Below are positions 45,734 through 59,280 of a DNA stretch of 64,000 bases, piece by piece. The DNA is from Flagellimonas sp. HMM57 (GTDB lineage Bacteria > Bacteroidota > Bacteroidia > Flavobacteriales > Flavobacteriaceae): contig NZ_CP090004.1 of NCBI RefSeq assembly GCF_021390175.1, forward strand, positions 2,657,001 through 2,721,000. The letters are read 5' to 3'. The notes beneath the pieces are model-generated. The model worked only from the letters and a program-made list of their open reading frames with translations, made no database searches and had not been told where the DNA came from. Made by a program: the position numbers and the translations under genes. The number at the start of each line of letters is the position of its first letter. The first letter of the stretch is position 1.

Positions 45734-47077
45734 ATGAAGAAAGTAGTCGAGACCATATCAAATATTTGGAAGATAGAAGAACTAAGACAACGCATACTTA
45801 TAACATTAGGCTTGTTATTGGTATATCGTTTTGGTGCTCAAGTTGTACTTCCGGGTATTGATACCTCACAATTGGCGCAATTGACCTCAAATACAGAGCA
45901 AGGTATTTTAGGTATTCTTAATGCGTTTACAGGAGGTGCTTTTGCTAATGCTTCTGTATTTGCTTTAGGTATTATGCCTTACATTTCAGCTTCGATTGTA
46001 GTACAGTTAATGGGTATTGCTATTCCTTATCTTCAAAAACTACAGAAAGAGGGAGAAAGTGGTAGAAAGACTATTAATCAAATTACCCGTTGGTTGACAA
46101 TAGCGATATGTATTGTTCAGGCTCCAGCATATTTGTTTGGTTTAGGAGCACTGGGTGTTCCTGATAGTGCTTTTGTTTTAGGTAAAGGACTTGATTTTAT
46201 AGTACCTGCGGTAATCATTTTGGTGACAGGATGTGTTTTTGCCATGTGGTTAGGAGAAAAGATTACGGATAAAGGTATTGGAAACGGTATCTCTTTATTG
46301 ATTATGATCGGTATTATCGCCACTATGCCGCAATCCTTTGTTCAAGAATTTATTTCAAGAACAACTAACAATACTGGTGGCATTATGTTTATGCTAATCG
46401 AGGTTATCATCTGGTTCTTGGTTATTTTGGCCAGTGTACTTTTGGTAATGGCGGTAAGACAGATACCAGTACAGTATGCAAGAAGGACAGCATCTGGCGG
46501 TTATGAGAAAAATATCATGGGATCTAGACAATATATCCCGTTAAAGCTGAATGCATCTGGTGTAATGCCAATCATTTTTGCTCAAGCTATAATGTTTGCA
46601 CCAAGTTTGCTTGGAAAAACATTTAATAATACTGCGGTTGGACAATGGATGGAAGTGCAATTTGCTGATATTTTTGGATTGGCCTACAACATTCTTTTCG
46701 CCGTATTGATCATCATTTTCACATATTTCTACACCGCTATAACGGTTCCTACGAACAAAATGGCAGATGATTTAAAACGAAGTGGTGGTTTTATTCCAGG
46801 AATTCGTCCCGGAAAGGAAACAGGTGATTTTTTGGATAAAATAATGTCCTTAATAACACTTCCTGGTTCTGTTTTTCTCGCCCTACTGGCAGTTTTACCT
46901 GCAGTAGTTGTGAAATTAATGGATGTACAGGCAGGTTGGGCACTTTTTTATGGAGGTACATCACTATTAATTATGGTCGGTGTTGCAATCGATACAGTAC
47001 AGCAAGTAAATTCTTATTTGTTGAATAGACATTATGACGGTTTGATGAAGACCGGGAAAAATAGAAAAGTAGCGTAA
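45734..47077 (+). CDS. secY: Protein translocase subunit SecY
   Basis: SecY of 447 residues, the ten-helix channel of the Sec translocon in the inner membrane. Landmarks: RIL-ITLGLLLVYRFGAQVVLPGID, PYISASIVVQLM, the cytoplasmic loop VRQIPVQYARRTASGGY and the C-terminal LLNRHYDGLMKTGKNRKVA. It sits in its usual place after rplO. The adk and map genes that often follow in other phyla are missing, and a repeat-rich gap leads to infA. Confidence 0.98.
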   Translation: MKKVVETISNIWKIEELRQRILITLGLLLVYRFGAQVVLPGIDTSQLAQLTSNTEQGILGILNAFTGGAFANASVFALGIMPYISASIVVQLMGIAIPYLQKLQKEGESGRKTINQITRWLTIAICIVQAPAYLFGLGALGVPDSAFVLGKGLDFIVPAVIILVTGCVFAMWLGEKITDKGIGNGISLLIMIGIIATMPQSFVQEFISRTTNNTGGIMFMLIEVIIWFLVILASVLLVMAVRQIPVQYARRTASGGYEKNIMGSRQYIPLKLNASGVMPIIFAQAIMFAPSLLGKTFNNTAVGQWMEVQFADIFGLAYNILFAVLIIIFTYFYTAITVPTNKMADDLKRSGGFIPGIRPGKETGDFLDKIMSLITLPGSVFLALLAVLPAVVVKLMDVQAGWALFYGGTSLLIMVGVAIDTVQQVNSYLLNRHYDGLMKTGKNRKVA

Positions 47078-47081
47078 AATA

Positions 47082-47184
47082 GAAGTTAGAAGCAAGAAGT
47101 TAGAGGTTAGATGACCGTTGCGGTGAAGGATGTCAAAAGAGATGGAAAAACTTATAACTTATAACTGAAAACTAATTACTAAAA
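47082..47184. repeat. Paired inverted heptamer arrays in the secY-infA gap
   Basis: The left array (47082-47109) reads GAAGTTA, GAAGCAA, GAAGTTA, GAGGTTA. The right array (47150-47184) reads ACTTATA, ACTTATA, ACTGAAA, ACTAATT, ACTAAAA. Both have an exact 7-nt period, and the right unit is roughly the reverse complement of the left. The right array ends one base before the infA ATG. The core (47110-47149) is not repetitive. Confidence 0.7.
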
Positions 47185-47185
47185 T

Positions 47186-47401
47186 ATGGCAAAGCAGCCA
47201 GCAATAGAACAAGACGGAACAATTATAGAAGCATTGTCAAATGCTATGTTTCGGGTGGAATTAGAAAATGGGCATGTGGTTACCGCACATATCTCTGGAA
47301 AAATGCGTATGCACTATATAAAATTGCTTCCAGGAGATAAGGTTAAGCTAGAAATGAGCCCATACGATTTAACAAAAGCAAGAATTACTTACAGATACTA
47401 A
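47186..47401 (+). CDS. infA: Translation initiation factor IF-1
   Basis: IF-1 of 71 residues, an OB-fold protein that binds the 30S A site during initiation. Landmarks: [40 protein letters not shown] and the C-terminal [10 protein letters not shown]. It sits between secY and rpmJ, as in many bacteria. A heptamer array directly abuts its start codon, so the array forms the whole ribosome-binding region. Confidence 0.98.
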
Positions 47402-47405
47402 TACG

Positions 47406-47522
47406 ATGAAAGTAAGAGCATCAATAAAGAAGAGAAGCGCCGAATGCAAGATAGTTCGCAGAAAAGGCAGATTATACGTAATCAACAAAAAGAATCCTAG
47501 ATTTAAACAAAGACAAGGGTAA
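47406..47522 (+). CDS. rpmJ: 50S ribosomal protein L36, zinc-independent form
   Basis: L36 of 38 residues, from the ATG at 47406 to the TAA at 47520-47522. It reads [20 protein letters not shown] and ends NPRFKQRQG. Zinc-binding L36 has three Cys and one His; here a single Cys remains and the His position is Arg/Phe, so this is the C-minus type. It lies 4 bp after infA and 2 bp before rpsM. Confidence 0.96.
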
Positions 47523-47524
47523 TT

Positions 47525-47899
47525 ATGGCAAGAATCGCAGGTGTAGATATACCTAAACAAAAGCGTGGAGTTATTTCACTTACCTACATTTACGGAATTG
47601 GTAAAAGTAGGGCAGAAGAAATTTTGGAAAAAGCCCAAGTAAGCGTGGATACCAAAGTTTCTGATTGGAATGATGACGAAATAGGAAGAATTAGGGAGGC
47701 AGTTTCATCTTATACCATAGAAGGTGAACTTCGTTCAGAAACGCAATTGAACATCAAGCGATTGATGGATATTGGTTGCTACCGTGGAATTCGTCATAGA
47801 TCAGGATTGCCACTTAGAGGCCAGCGTACCAAGAATAACTCTAGGACAAGAAAAGGAAAGCGTAAAACAGTTGCCAACAAGAAAAAAGCAACTAAATAA
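47525..47899 (+). CDS. rpsM: 30S ribosomal protein S13
   Basis: S13 of 124 residues, in the 30S head where it contacts the P-site tRNA. Landmarks: [54 protein letters not shown] and a Lys/Arg-rich tail. A heptamer-array gap follows before rpsK. Confidence 0.98.
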
Positions 47900-47908
47900 T
47901 TAATAAGA

Positions 47909-47997
47909 TTAGTCATTAGTATTTAGAAGTTAGAAGAATCTGTTTGAAATGTAAAAGTCTAGGATTCCAATAACTAAAAACTAACAACTAGAAACTA
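47909..47997. repeat. Paired inverted heptamer arrays in the rpsM-rpsK gap
   Basis: The left array (47909-47936) reads TTAGTCA, TTAGTAT, TTAGAAG, TTAGAAG. The right array (47970-47997) reads ATAACTA, AAAACTA, ACAACTA, GAAACTA. The period is exactly 7 nt and the two arms are approximately reverse complements around TTAG/CTAA cores. The right array ends 6 bp before the rpsK ATG. The architecture is the same as in the secY-infA gap. Confidence 0.7.
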
Positions 47998-48003
47998 AAA
48001 GAT

Positions 48004-48396
48004 ATGGCAAAAGCAAATACTAAAACAGCCAAAAAACGCAAAGTAGTTGTAGAATCTACTGGCGAGGCTCATGTAGTAGCATCCTTTAATAACATCATCA
48101 TTTCTTTGACCAATAAAAAGGGGGATGTTATCTCTTGGTCATCTGCAGGAAAGATGGGCTTTAGAGGCTCTAAAAAGAATACTCCTTATGCAGCCCAAGT
48201 TGCTGCTGAAGATTGTGCAAAGGTTGCGCATGAGGCAGGACTTAGAAAAGTAAAGGTTTACGTAAAGGGACCGGGAAATGGTAGAGAGTCTGCTATTCGT
48301 TCCATTCATAATGCAGGAATAGAAGTAACGGAAATAGTTGATGTAACACCACTACCCCACAACGGTTGTAGACCACCAAAAAGAAGAAGAGTTTAA
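48004..48396 (+). CDS. rpsK: 30S ribosomal protein S11
   Basis: S11 of 130 residues, on the 30S platform. Landmarks: [39 protein letters not shown] and the C-terminal [17 protein letters not shown]. Normal length. Its leader is formed by the heptamer array just upstream. Confidence 0.98.
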
Positions 48397-48436: not shown

Positions 48437-48484
48437 AGTGCAGTATAGATTATCGAAGGATAAGCCTTAATTCATAGTCGCACT
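48437..48484 (+). promoter_or_regulatory. Candidate two-level hairpin in the rpsK-rpsD gap
   Basis: AGTGC (48437-48441) pairs with GCACT (48480-48484), enclosing a second hairpin, TTATC with a GAAG loop and GATAA (48450-48463). It lies 17 bp before rpsD. S4, the product of rpsD, represses the alpha operon in E. coli, so a feedback role is possible but not shown. Confidence 0.3.
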
Positions 48485-58283: not shown

Positions 58284-59213
58284 ATGCAGGTTACCAATAC
58301 CATTTTAATGATAAGACCGGTCAACTTCAGGATGAACGAGCAGACAGCGGTCAACAATTATTTTCAAGAAGACTTGAGCTTAAAGAACAATGAAATAAAC
58401 AAAAAAGCCCAGAAAGAGTTTGATGATTTTGTAGCTACACTTAGAAATCATGGGGTCAATGTGATTGTTGTTGATGATAAAAAAGAAACAGATACTCCAG
58501 ATTCTATCTTCCCCAATAATTGGATTTCGTTTCATGATAGTGGTACAATCTGCGTGTATCCCATGTTTGCCCCAAACCGACGAAAAGAACGAAGGGAAGA
58601 TATCTTTGATGTACTCGAAGAACACGGTTTTCATATAGACAACATTGTTGATTATACAGCTGCGGAAGAGGACGGTATCTTTTTAGAAGGTACTGGCAGT
58701 ATCCTAAAGGATAGGGTTAATCAAAAAGCCTATTGTGCTTTAGGGGAACGAGCAGATGAGGGGCTCTTTATAGAGTTTTGTGAAGATTTTGACTGTTTTC
58801 CCGTTATTTTTACGGCCAACCAAGCAGTAGATGGTAAAAGACTCCCAATCTATCATACCAATGTAATGATGGCCATGGGCGAGACCTTTGCCGTAATCTG
58901 TTCAGATACCATTGACGATAAAAAAGAACGCAAAAATGTAATCGAGCACCTTAAAAAAGATGGTAGGGAGATAATTACCATTACAGAAGAACAGATGTAC
59001 CAATTTGCGGGAAACATGCTTCAGGTCATTGGTGCCAATGATCAACGTTTTATGGTCATGAGTTCTGCCGCATTTAAAAGTTTGAAACAATCCCAAATTG
59101 AAGCTATCGAAAAGCACTGTGAAATCATCCATAGCCCCTTGGATACCATTGAGACCTGTGGTGGGGGCAGCGCACGTTGTATGATGGCCGAAGTGTTTTT
59201 ACCGAAGGCTTAA
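58284..59213 (+). CDS. ctlX: Citrulline utilization hydrolase CtlX
   Basis: A 309-residue GME-superfamily protein. Landmarks: MIRPVNFRMNEQTAVNNYF, DSIFPNNWISFHD, FLEGTGSILKD (acidic core), the His in PIYHTNVMMAMGETF and the C-terminal ETCGGGSARCMMAEVF with the presumed nucleophile Cys. CtlX of Francisella supports growth on citrulline, and flavobacterial homologues carry the name. Placed after an arginine-deiminase-like gene, it suggests arginine to citrulline and on to ornithine or glutamate, which is inference. Confidence 0.85.
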   Translation: MQVTNTILMIRPVNFRMNEQTAVNNYFQEDLSLKNNEINKKAQKEFDDFVATLRNHGVNVIVVDDKKETDTPDSIFPNNWISFHDSGTICVYPMFAPNRRKERREDIFDVLEEHGFHIDNIVDYTAAEEDGIFLEGTGSILKDRVNQKAYCALGERADEGLFIEFCEDFDCFPVIFTANQAVDGKRLPIYHTNVMMAMGETFAVICSDTIDDKKERKNVIEHLKKDGREIITITEEQMYQFAGNMLQVIGANDQRFMVMSSAAFKSLKQSQIEAIEKHCEIIHSPLDTIETCGGGSARCMMAEVFLPKA

Positions 59214-59217
59214 TTTA

Positions 59218-59280
59218 GGTGAAAGGTGAAAGGTGAAAGGTGAAAGGTGACGGTTGACAGTAGACAGGTAACGGTTGATG
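59218..59280. repeat. Array of nine consecutive degenerate heptamers
   Basis: Reading from 59218 in exact 7-nt steps: GGTGAAA four times, then GGTGACG, GTTGACA, GTAGACA, GGTAACG, GTTGATG. The array begins 5 bp after the ctlX stop. A different hexamer-like run of TTGAGT/TTGAAC units follows at about 59293-59345, ending in the inverted CTCAACT at 59362-59368. Confidence 0.75.

Follow-up and report, generated by a model that had tools for sequence, protein, structure and literature searches.

What are the paired arrays of seven-nucleotide (nt) units that run up to infA and rpsK in Flagellimonas sp. HMM57? In the 64,000-nt stretch analyzed here (the window; contig NZ_CP090004.1, forward-strand positions 2,657,001 to 2,721,000), two intergenic gaps consist of a core with an array on either side: the 108-nt gap between secY (ending at 47077) and infA (starting at 47186), and the 104-nt gap between rpsM (ending at 47899) and rpsK (starting at 48004). 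Array pairs of the same kind bracket genes for the 23S rRNA-intervening sequence protein (IVP; PF05635, also named four helix bundle protein, TIGR02436) in Bacteroidota and on cyanobacterial plasmids, and the repeats vary in sequence and in unit length (7 or 8 nt) with the IVP subfamily. From these sequence comparisons, we consider it likely that both window inserts are relatives, lacking an open reading frame (ORF), of a widespread and rarely noticed class of insertion elements that encode IVP. A first-pass annotation of this DNA had suggested mobile or spreading repeats, which is probably right; it had missed the bracketing of IVP genes, the best clue to what the arrays are.

Period-7 arrays in two operon gaps

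In every half of both gaps, the best 21-nt window at a lag of 7 held 16 to 17 matches (p = 0.0005; 0 of 2000 permutations). Lag 14 was also significant in three of the four halves, and in the same test lags 5, 6, 8, 9, 10 and 11 gave p values of 0.07 to 1.0. Tandem Repeats Finder (TRF) reported period 7 at 47080-47111, 47149-47166, 47147-47173 and 47972-48000 and period 14 at 47156-47184; the left rpsM-rpsK array was too degenerate for it to detect. The TRF scores of the gap arrays (33 to 44) are unremarkable among the 37 rows for the window, in which other periods reach 45 to 52, and a strict autocorrelation scan flagged neither gap. The window arrays are confirmed as genuine period-7 structures. 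Chance as their origin is ruled out by the permutation test, the genome scan and the counts beside IVP genes and control ORFs given below.

The annotation's description of the two gaps is borne out by these p values, its spacings of 1 and 6 nt between the right arrays and the infA and rpsK start codons are correct, and direct reading agrees with it that one architecture surrounds different cores (Table 1). Its statement that the arms are roughly reverse complementary holds only in part. The RNA hairpins predicted for the two gaps are modest, at -15.4 kcal/mol (z = -1.78) for secY-infA and -14.2 kcal/mol (z = -1.14) for rpsM-rpsK, and the 6-bp stem of the rpsM-rpsK core shows no compensatory changes. 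Neither gap holds an IVP (S23p) ORF.

Table 1. Array-bearing features of the window and the evidence for each
Feature	Positions	Strand	Evidence
secY-infA insert: whole gap, ORF-less array/core/array, type A	47078..47185	+	sequence, TRF, gap test, genus loci
secY-infA left heptamer array: four AGAAGTT-like units	47082..47109	+	sequence, TRF, gap test
secY-infA core	47110..47149	+	genus loci compared by eye
secY-infA right heptamer array: AACTTAT/AACTGAA-like units, ending 1 nt short of infA	47150..47184	+	sequence, TRF, gap test
rpsM-rpsK insert: whole gap, ORF-less array/core/array	47900..48003	+	sequence, insert alignment, gap test
rpsM-rpsK left array: TTAGNNN every 7 nt	47909..47936	+	sequence, insert alignment, gap test
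rpsM-rpsK core, conserved: AATCTGTTTGAAATGTAAAAGTCTAGGATTC; a 6-bp stem that uses the base just before the core closes it	47937..47967	+	core search, 52-insert alignment
rpsM-rpsK right array: ACTAANN units, ending 6 nt short of rpsK	47970..47997	+	sequence, TRF, insert alignment, gap test
Heptamer tract: AGGTGAA x 4.9, then degenerate units; begins right after the stop codon ending at 59213	59214..59280	+	TRF, strict scan

The genome was sampled as 20 evenly spaced 20-kb stretches. At the strict autocorrelation threshold these yielded four arrays at lag 7, three of which cluster in 2 kb of the trp operon, and no array at lags 4 to 6 or 8 to 14; the window yielded two arrays at lag 7 and none at those other lags. 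At a looser threshold, lag 7 gave six arrays, against 0 to 2 in five first-order Markov shuffles, and lags 6, 12, 14 and 15 were about as common (7, 6, 6 and 4 arrays). In the trpD-trpC gap of this genome, 12.1 copies of AGTTTAG precede a core and 9.6 copies of ACAACTG that reach the trpC start codon, and in the trpG-trpD gap the left array is 7.6 copies of TCAGTAG, the right one being weaker and also of period 7. The architecture therefore extends beyond the two window gaps, and trpD-trpC supplies the array/core/array structure elsewhere in the genome on which the annotation's proposal depended.

Two further tracts of this genome were seen along the way. The tract that begins at 59214 continues to 59372 through degenerate G-rich and then C-rich units and looks like a further array element. 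At G000:C1:3631082-3631353 (loci L371 to L377) lies a long mosaic of GAGGTAC, GAAGTTA, GGAATCA, ACTGAAA and ACTGACA units with repeated blocks. The secY-infA arms are echoed in this mosaic and in the DNA beside the IVP gene at 3305121.

IVP genes between inverted arrays

In relatives, the trpG-trpD and trpD-trpC gaps hold a small ORF between similar arrays, and this ORF is IVP. Of 40 genus genomes, 38 contained PF05635, as did 116 of 148 drawn from the phylum (113 above the cut-off); this genome has 7 matches, one with internal stops, and 14 control genomes had none. The gene points the same way as both of its neighbors at 24 of 29 loci in the genus, 20 of 28 in the phylum and 3 of 10 on plasmids. 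Next to co-directional neighbors, the median distance is 58 nt from the upstream stop to the IVP start (58 loci) and 43 nt from the IVP end to the next start (49 loci).

Flanks were tested at 144 of 149 IVP loci (66 genus, 68 phylum and 10 plasmid), which represent 55 sites, the largest with 24 loci; L227, L251, L252, L264 and L311 were omitted for truncation, a missing start codon or the length filter. The loci are the better-scoring matches, with ORF starts set by a simple rule that may misplace a few, and 214 mechanically found ORFs of this genome served as controls. Lag spectra of the 90-nt flanks (67 genus, 28 phylum and 10 plasmid loci, nine of the last cyanobacterial) peak at 7 on both sides, and those of the IVP ORF and of more distant DNA are flat, so that the signal belongs to the flanks only. 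Lag 7 reached p ≤ 0.05 upstream at 78, downstream at 77 and on both sides at 56 of the 144 loci, compared with 10, 11 and 2 of the 214 control ORFs. Lag 8 did so at 32, 24 and 16 loci, and any other lag at 1 to 10 loci on one side and 0 to 1 on both. When each site was represented by a single locus, lag 7 was significant upstream at 36, downstream at 31 and on both sides at 27 of the 55, and a 7- or 8-nt period appeared on at least one side at 50 of them, versus about 10 expected by chance from four tests at 0.05.

The arrays flanking a given gene also match each other. Scored against the reverse complement of its own right arm, the left arm reached a mean of 25.0, versus 14.9 for arms of other loci and 14.7 for DNA farther away, and the own-arm score exceeded 95% of cross pairs at 91 of the 144 loci (7.2 expected). 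Predicted RNA duplexes were more stable between own arms (-24.0) than between crossed ones (-15.5), with 69 of 144 loci beating 95% of 40 cross pairs. At 94 loci the arms are G-biased to the left and C-biased to the right of the gene, and at 4 the bias is opposite.

The association reaches plasmids. One Nostoc plasmid carries GGGAGTA/TCCCTAC arrays around an IVP gene between two ribonucleotide reductase genes, and a second carries GGGAACA/CTGTTCC arrays around an IVP gene that follows a TraM-domain gene. Among six extra plasmid loci, lag 7 was significant upstream in five, one of them alphaproteobacterial, and downstream in two; the plasmid loci L324, L328 and L409 lacked a significant lag-7 signal (p ≤ 0.05) on either side, and period 8 was found at plasmid locus L329 and at the Gemmatirosa IVP locus. 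On two cyanobacterial plasmids the gene lies between cas6 and cas4 (L326, with clear arrays, and L328, not significant at lag 7). The trp gaps also hold, in several of the loci L195 to L220, another family of inserts, whose hairpin ends are of the form GTCATTCC...GGAATGACA; its trpD-trpC members at L211 and L219 have an ORF that we take to resemble a GIY-YIG nuclease.

Array sequence is related to the protein that the arrays enclose. Between different sites, flank similarity climbs with IVP identity from 30.6 at 0.3 to 0.4 through 34.7 at 0.5 to 0.6 to 45.1 at 0.6 to 0.7, a bin of just 26 pairs (Mantel r = 0.17, p = 0.001). As for unit length, 98 of the 144 loci have a 7-nt period on some side, 31 more have solely an 8-nt period, and 15 have neither. 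Mapped on the IVP tree (110 of 144 loci labeled), the 7/8 distinction needs 7 changes, versus 25.8 in shuffles, of which 0 of 500 were as low; after thinning by site and subfamily to 65 rows it needs 6, versus 12.0, again with 0 of 500 as low. Slippage would not readily produce such tracking, whereas a protein footprint would. Two solved IVP relatives, 2gsc and 2rld, have five chains each (fold assigned by sequence), and the Xanthomonas one of the two is described as a homopentamer of four-helix bundles (PMC4990558).

Plain microsatellite slippage, in which the polymerase favors 7-nt steps, arrays grow in any intergenic DNA and the pairing with IVP is secondary, has precedent: an earlier study cited in PMC4679880 and PMC4692102 is reported there to have called heptamers the commonest long simple repeats and to have proposed polymerase slippage. 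Perfect long arrays such as the 12 copies of AGTTTAG probably did grow in this way. We nevertheless regard slippage as a very improbable account of the whole, since it leaves unexplained the inverted matching pairs, the bracketing of one gene family, and a unit length and sequence that follow the IVP tree; pure slippage was rejected because it cannot account for the paired arms or the fit to that tree.

Inserts among relatives and the rpsM-rpsK core

In 80 named relatives obtained by a SecY scan, the secY-infA gap measures ≤20 nt in 69 and >50 nt in 11, and the rpsM-rpsK gap ≤20 nt in 45, 21 to 80 nt in 8 and >80 nt in 27. Thirty genus loci, the best matches from 60 genus genomes and therefore not a random draw, show the same alternation: secY-infA is 1 to 4 nt long in 20 and holds an insert in 10, and rpsM-rpsK holds an insert in 22 and is 8 to 12 nt long in 8. 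Both gaps are thus filled in some relatives and empty or short in others, and from these comparisons they appear to contain insertions, not ancestral leaders. Structured leaders replacing lost regulatory gaps, which the annotation had offered as its other explanation, find no support as a general account, given how often the secY-infA gap is short and that its cores differ between near relatives.

The 10 filled secY-infA gaps hold three types of insert, A (6), B (2) and C (2); by eye, the type A inserts (L161, L167, L173, L184, L185 and L188) have similar arms around different cores. On a genus tree from 2,490 coding columns, at least 10 state changes are needed at secY-infA, 5 at fadB-fadA (state known for 21 of the 30 rows) and 4 at rpsM-rpsK. 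Could the inserts be old, vertically inherited and only ever lost, their patchiness coming from deletion between the arms and homologous exchange? Each of the three insert types recurs on branches far apart in the genus tree, and the 144 IVP loci collapse into 55 sites; both facts would fit. Loss alone would, however, require many losses plus different inserts in one ~3-nt gap, and this genome (G000, type A) and its tree sister G331 (type B), with identical S13, carry unrelated secY-infA inserts; we judge this history unlikely.

The fadB-fadA gap shows both forms of insert at one place. Across 30 genus loci it is empty in 9 (TAGAATG-like), has a short ORF-less insert in 11, an IVP-bearing insert in 9 and another ORF in 1. 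The ORF-less inserts span 40 to 83 nt, their arrays being identified by eye and doubtful in L398, L391, L397 and L400, and the IVP-bearing inserts span 423 to 440 nt and belong to three IVP subfamilies, each with its own arrays. The small ORF at the remaining locus (L392, genome G323) is different and has no evident repeat arrays.

We compared 40 ORF-less inserts from five gaps, some of them orthologous, with IVP flanks at other sites; the null was those flanks read in reverse, with composition and period unchanged. The mean score was 50.9 versus 41.9 for reversed flanks, and 33 of the 40 scored higher with true flanks (p = 1.9e-6). The window inserts behaved alike, with best scores of 55 versus 45 for rpsM-rpsK and 51 versus 43 for secY-infA. 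The flank closest to the rpsM-rpsK insert is that of L362, where IVP stands between TTAGTGG TTAGTCC and ACTAAGG ACTAACA ACTAACC. Occupancy of secY-infA and rpsM-rpsK by ORF-less inserts rises with IVP copy number (Spearman 0.75 in 20 genomes, kinship uncontrolled), and the 40 inserts fold with a mean z of -2.35, 22 of them below -2, the window pair being less stable. The two window inserts have in common with the class inverted 7- or 8-nt arrays on both sides (an arm match that is class-wide and only modest in these two), presence and absence at a single gap, and arms resembling the flanks of IVP subfamilies.

IVP could instead be a host RNA-binding regulator, and the arrays its operon-control sites, acting as a translation or processing switch and not as mobile ends. 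The sites precede operon start codons, IVP is mostly co-directional with its neighbors in the genus and phylum samples (3 of 10 on plasmids), the rpsM-rpsK core is conserved, and TAACTGA heptamers before start codons have been discussed as possible regulator sites (PMC4679880). Set against this, the arrays enclose the IVP gene itself, close relatives have empty sites, fadB-fadA alone holds three IVP subfamilies with arrays of their own, and secY-infA switches state at least 10 times across 30 genomes; the regulator account is accordingly improbable in our estimation.

Several observations weigh against placing the window inserts in a class of IVP-encoding elements. Reversed flanks fitted better in 6 of the 40 ORF-less inserts, with 1 tie, in a set that includes orthologues, and the long trpD-trpC insert of this genome is among the 6. 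The copy-number correlation does not control for kinship and has too few independent pairs. Only 31 of 9,759 sampled different-site IVP pairs share ≥60% identity, one of them ≥80%, and the IVP trees are poorly resolved. The G/C skew is confined to 94 of the 144 loci, 15 lack a significant 7- or 8-nt period, and the arms of L322 and L326 read as direct, not inverted. The secY-infA insert has no second full copy in its own genome, and only 2 of 30 AGAAGTT-array loci have IVP within 1.5 kb, so that most such arrays lack an adjoining IVP gene. Hairpin support for both window inserts is weak. No target-site duplication was recognized by eye at secY-infA, fadB-fadA or trpD-trpC, no transposition event was seen, and IVP matched no catalytic family in a profile search that was not aimed at a partner enzyme.

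The rpsM-rpsK insert has a further property. A search of 299 family genomes for its 31-nt core, with ≤3 mismatches allowed, gave 26 matches in 25 genomes. All but one fall in the rpsM-rpsK gap; the exception belongs to G288 (L135/L140), which has a second copy of the element, core included and with different arms, in the rpmJ-rpsM gap 477 bp upstream. The core is also present in 25 of the 27 named-relative gaps longer than 80 nt. An alignment of 52 of 58 distinct inserts (6 with an extra nested stretch were excluded) has 33 invariant columns, 20 of them in the core and 3 forming the start codon. This conservation across genera looks like selection on the core, which may have been recruited to host use, with a regulatory role possible there.

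A ribosomal-protein leader, whose core RNA would bind a ribosomal protein and control rpsK-rpsD-rpoA, is a possible though somewhat doubtful explanation of this insert. The invariant columns and the near confinement of the core to one gap agree with it, as does the S4-Flavobacteria leader (RF03141) just downstream, at 48448-48479 in the rpsK-rpsD gap, the sole Rfam match in the window. No Rfam family matched the rpsM-rpsK insert at gathering scores, however, 8 of 30 genus genomes lack it, and its arms are of the same kind as those at secY-infA and beside IVP. An RNA leader defined by covariation was rejected, because RNAalifold on the 52 inserts gave six consensus pairs, all in the core stem and none with compensatory changes. 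The insert may be both things at once, an element put to host use.

Other hairpin-like stretches, and one further insert, were seen in these operons. At L037, L042, L165, L166, L167 and L172, a GC-rich one of ~30 nt (CCGCGTGCCGCTGAAGC...GGCGGAGGCGCA type) is nested in the right rpsM-rpsK array. In many of the rpoA-rplQ gaps of L035 to L111, a conserved one (TAATCATATTTTGCTC ... GCAAGATGATAA type) precedes rplQ, a candidate L17 leader that alternates with other short sequences between species. The rpsD-rpoA gaps of some genera only (L083, L088, L095, L098, L101, L103, L104, L106, L110 and L111) contain a conserved insert of ~95 nt (ATTGGTATTTGGCCAAAGG ... CGCGCAACTAAATAACAATTAAAACGAAGA type).

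Known relatives of the arrays and a candidate mechanism

Cyanobacterial STRRs are heptamer repeats, and the annotation was right to see a likeness: the window arrays are likewise tandem heptanucleotide arrays in intergenic DNA, with AGAAGTT- and TTAGNNN-like units. Repeats of the GGGAATC/GGGGA(C/T)T kind in Xanthomonas and Nostoc are 7-nt, intergenic and found chiefly between aligned ORFs, with 70 to 75 inverted heptamer pairs per Xanthomonas genome and few in Nostoc; they are described as simple repeats or G-quadruplex formers, generally apart from mobile elements (PMC4692102). As described there, they have no linked protein, whereas here such arrays bracket IVP genes on Nostoc plasmids. TAACTGA direct repeats, reported from Beggiatoaceae, cyanobacteria and five Bacteroidetes, end just before start codons, those of ribosomal genes included; Gramella and Aequorivita host them, the same gaps carry other heptamers as well, and relatives have shorter ones (PMC4679880). 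They differ, as described there, in having one fixed sequence, nearly always direct, and no linked ORF.

The closest parallel is the 23S rRNA intervening sequence (IVS). One IVS of 428 nt carries, ahead of its S23p ORF, three heptamers in tandem plus a degenerate fourth; heptamer number varies between strains, and RNase III excises the IVS at the start of the first repeat (PMC4990558). It resembles the IVP inserts in its single ORF of the same family, its length close to 423 to 440 nt, its sporadic distribution and its heptamers before the ORF, a comparison that relies on this one paper's description and not on IVS sequences. It differs in sitting in rRNA helices, whereas the operon inserts lie between protein genes, have arrays on both sides and are often ORF-less. 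The window inserts are outside 23S rRNA genes and encode no IVP, and therefore work like an IVS without being one; sister elements at fadB-fadA and trpG-trpD do encode IVP. By this analogy, 23S rRNA IVSs look like the same kind of element, and cyanobacterial STRR arrays may be as well.

Miniature inverted-repeat transposable elements (MITEs) and repetitive extragenic palindromic (REP) elements are short, ORF-less and inverted at their ends, and are served in trans. The ORF-less inserts share that form by analogy, and differ in that array inserts come without a transposase, with no recognized target-site duplication and with arrays in place of single inverted repeats at their ends. Three of five IVPs show below-cutoff similarity to models of Avd, whose homology to IVP and essential part in the retrohoming of diversity-generating retroelements are stated in PMC10053308. 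From this kinship, an RNA-based route is no more than a reasonable guess; Avd acts alongside a reverse transcriptase, whereas the inserts described here have room for IVP alone.

On the account that we favor, in which the window inserts are ORF-less members of an IVP-encoding class, a full element has at its 5' side an array of 7-nt units (8-nt in some subfamilies), then an IVP gene of ~120 codons, and at its 3' side an array that is roughly the 5' one reversed and complemented; it sits in an operon, after the stop codon of one gene and before the start codon of the next. IVP, whose solved relatives are pentamers, might bind an array in RNA or DNA with one subunit per unit and so mark the element for copying, catalysis coming from another enzyme; ORF-less copies would be served in trans. 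Tolerance could arise as in 23S rRNA IVSs, from the position between cistrons, a G-poor 3' arm before the next start codon and harmless cutting of the hairpin by RNase III. That the elements move, that RNase III removes them and that IVP binds the repeats are proposals. The rpsM-rpsK copy has probably acquired a host role through its conserved core.

A broader proposal is tentative, and we hold it with less than even confidence: that the inverted arrays of 7- and 8-nt units found across bacteria, among them STRRs and 23S IVS heptamers, are the ends of one class of insertion elements defined by the IVP pentamer. Each unit would correspond to one subunit, the protein setting unit length and sequence, and the elements would insert in transcribed DNA, perhaps by way of an RNA intermediate and, in the manner of Avd, a reverse transcriptase recruited in trans; RNase III processing would render them harmless. 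In a literature search that covered few subscription journals and no preprints, we found no publication linking IVP outside rRNA to heptamer arrays, or unit length to subfamily. Heptamer repeats and IVSs are already published; what appears to be new is an IVS-like element in operon gaps, often without its gene.

Linking arrays to IVP gives the former a candidate protein and the latter a likely substrate. If the link is true, insertion elements of one class shape the DNA around start codons in essential operons, and simple repeats found there should not be taken, unexamined, for the products of neutral slippage.

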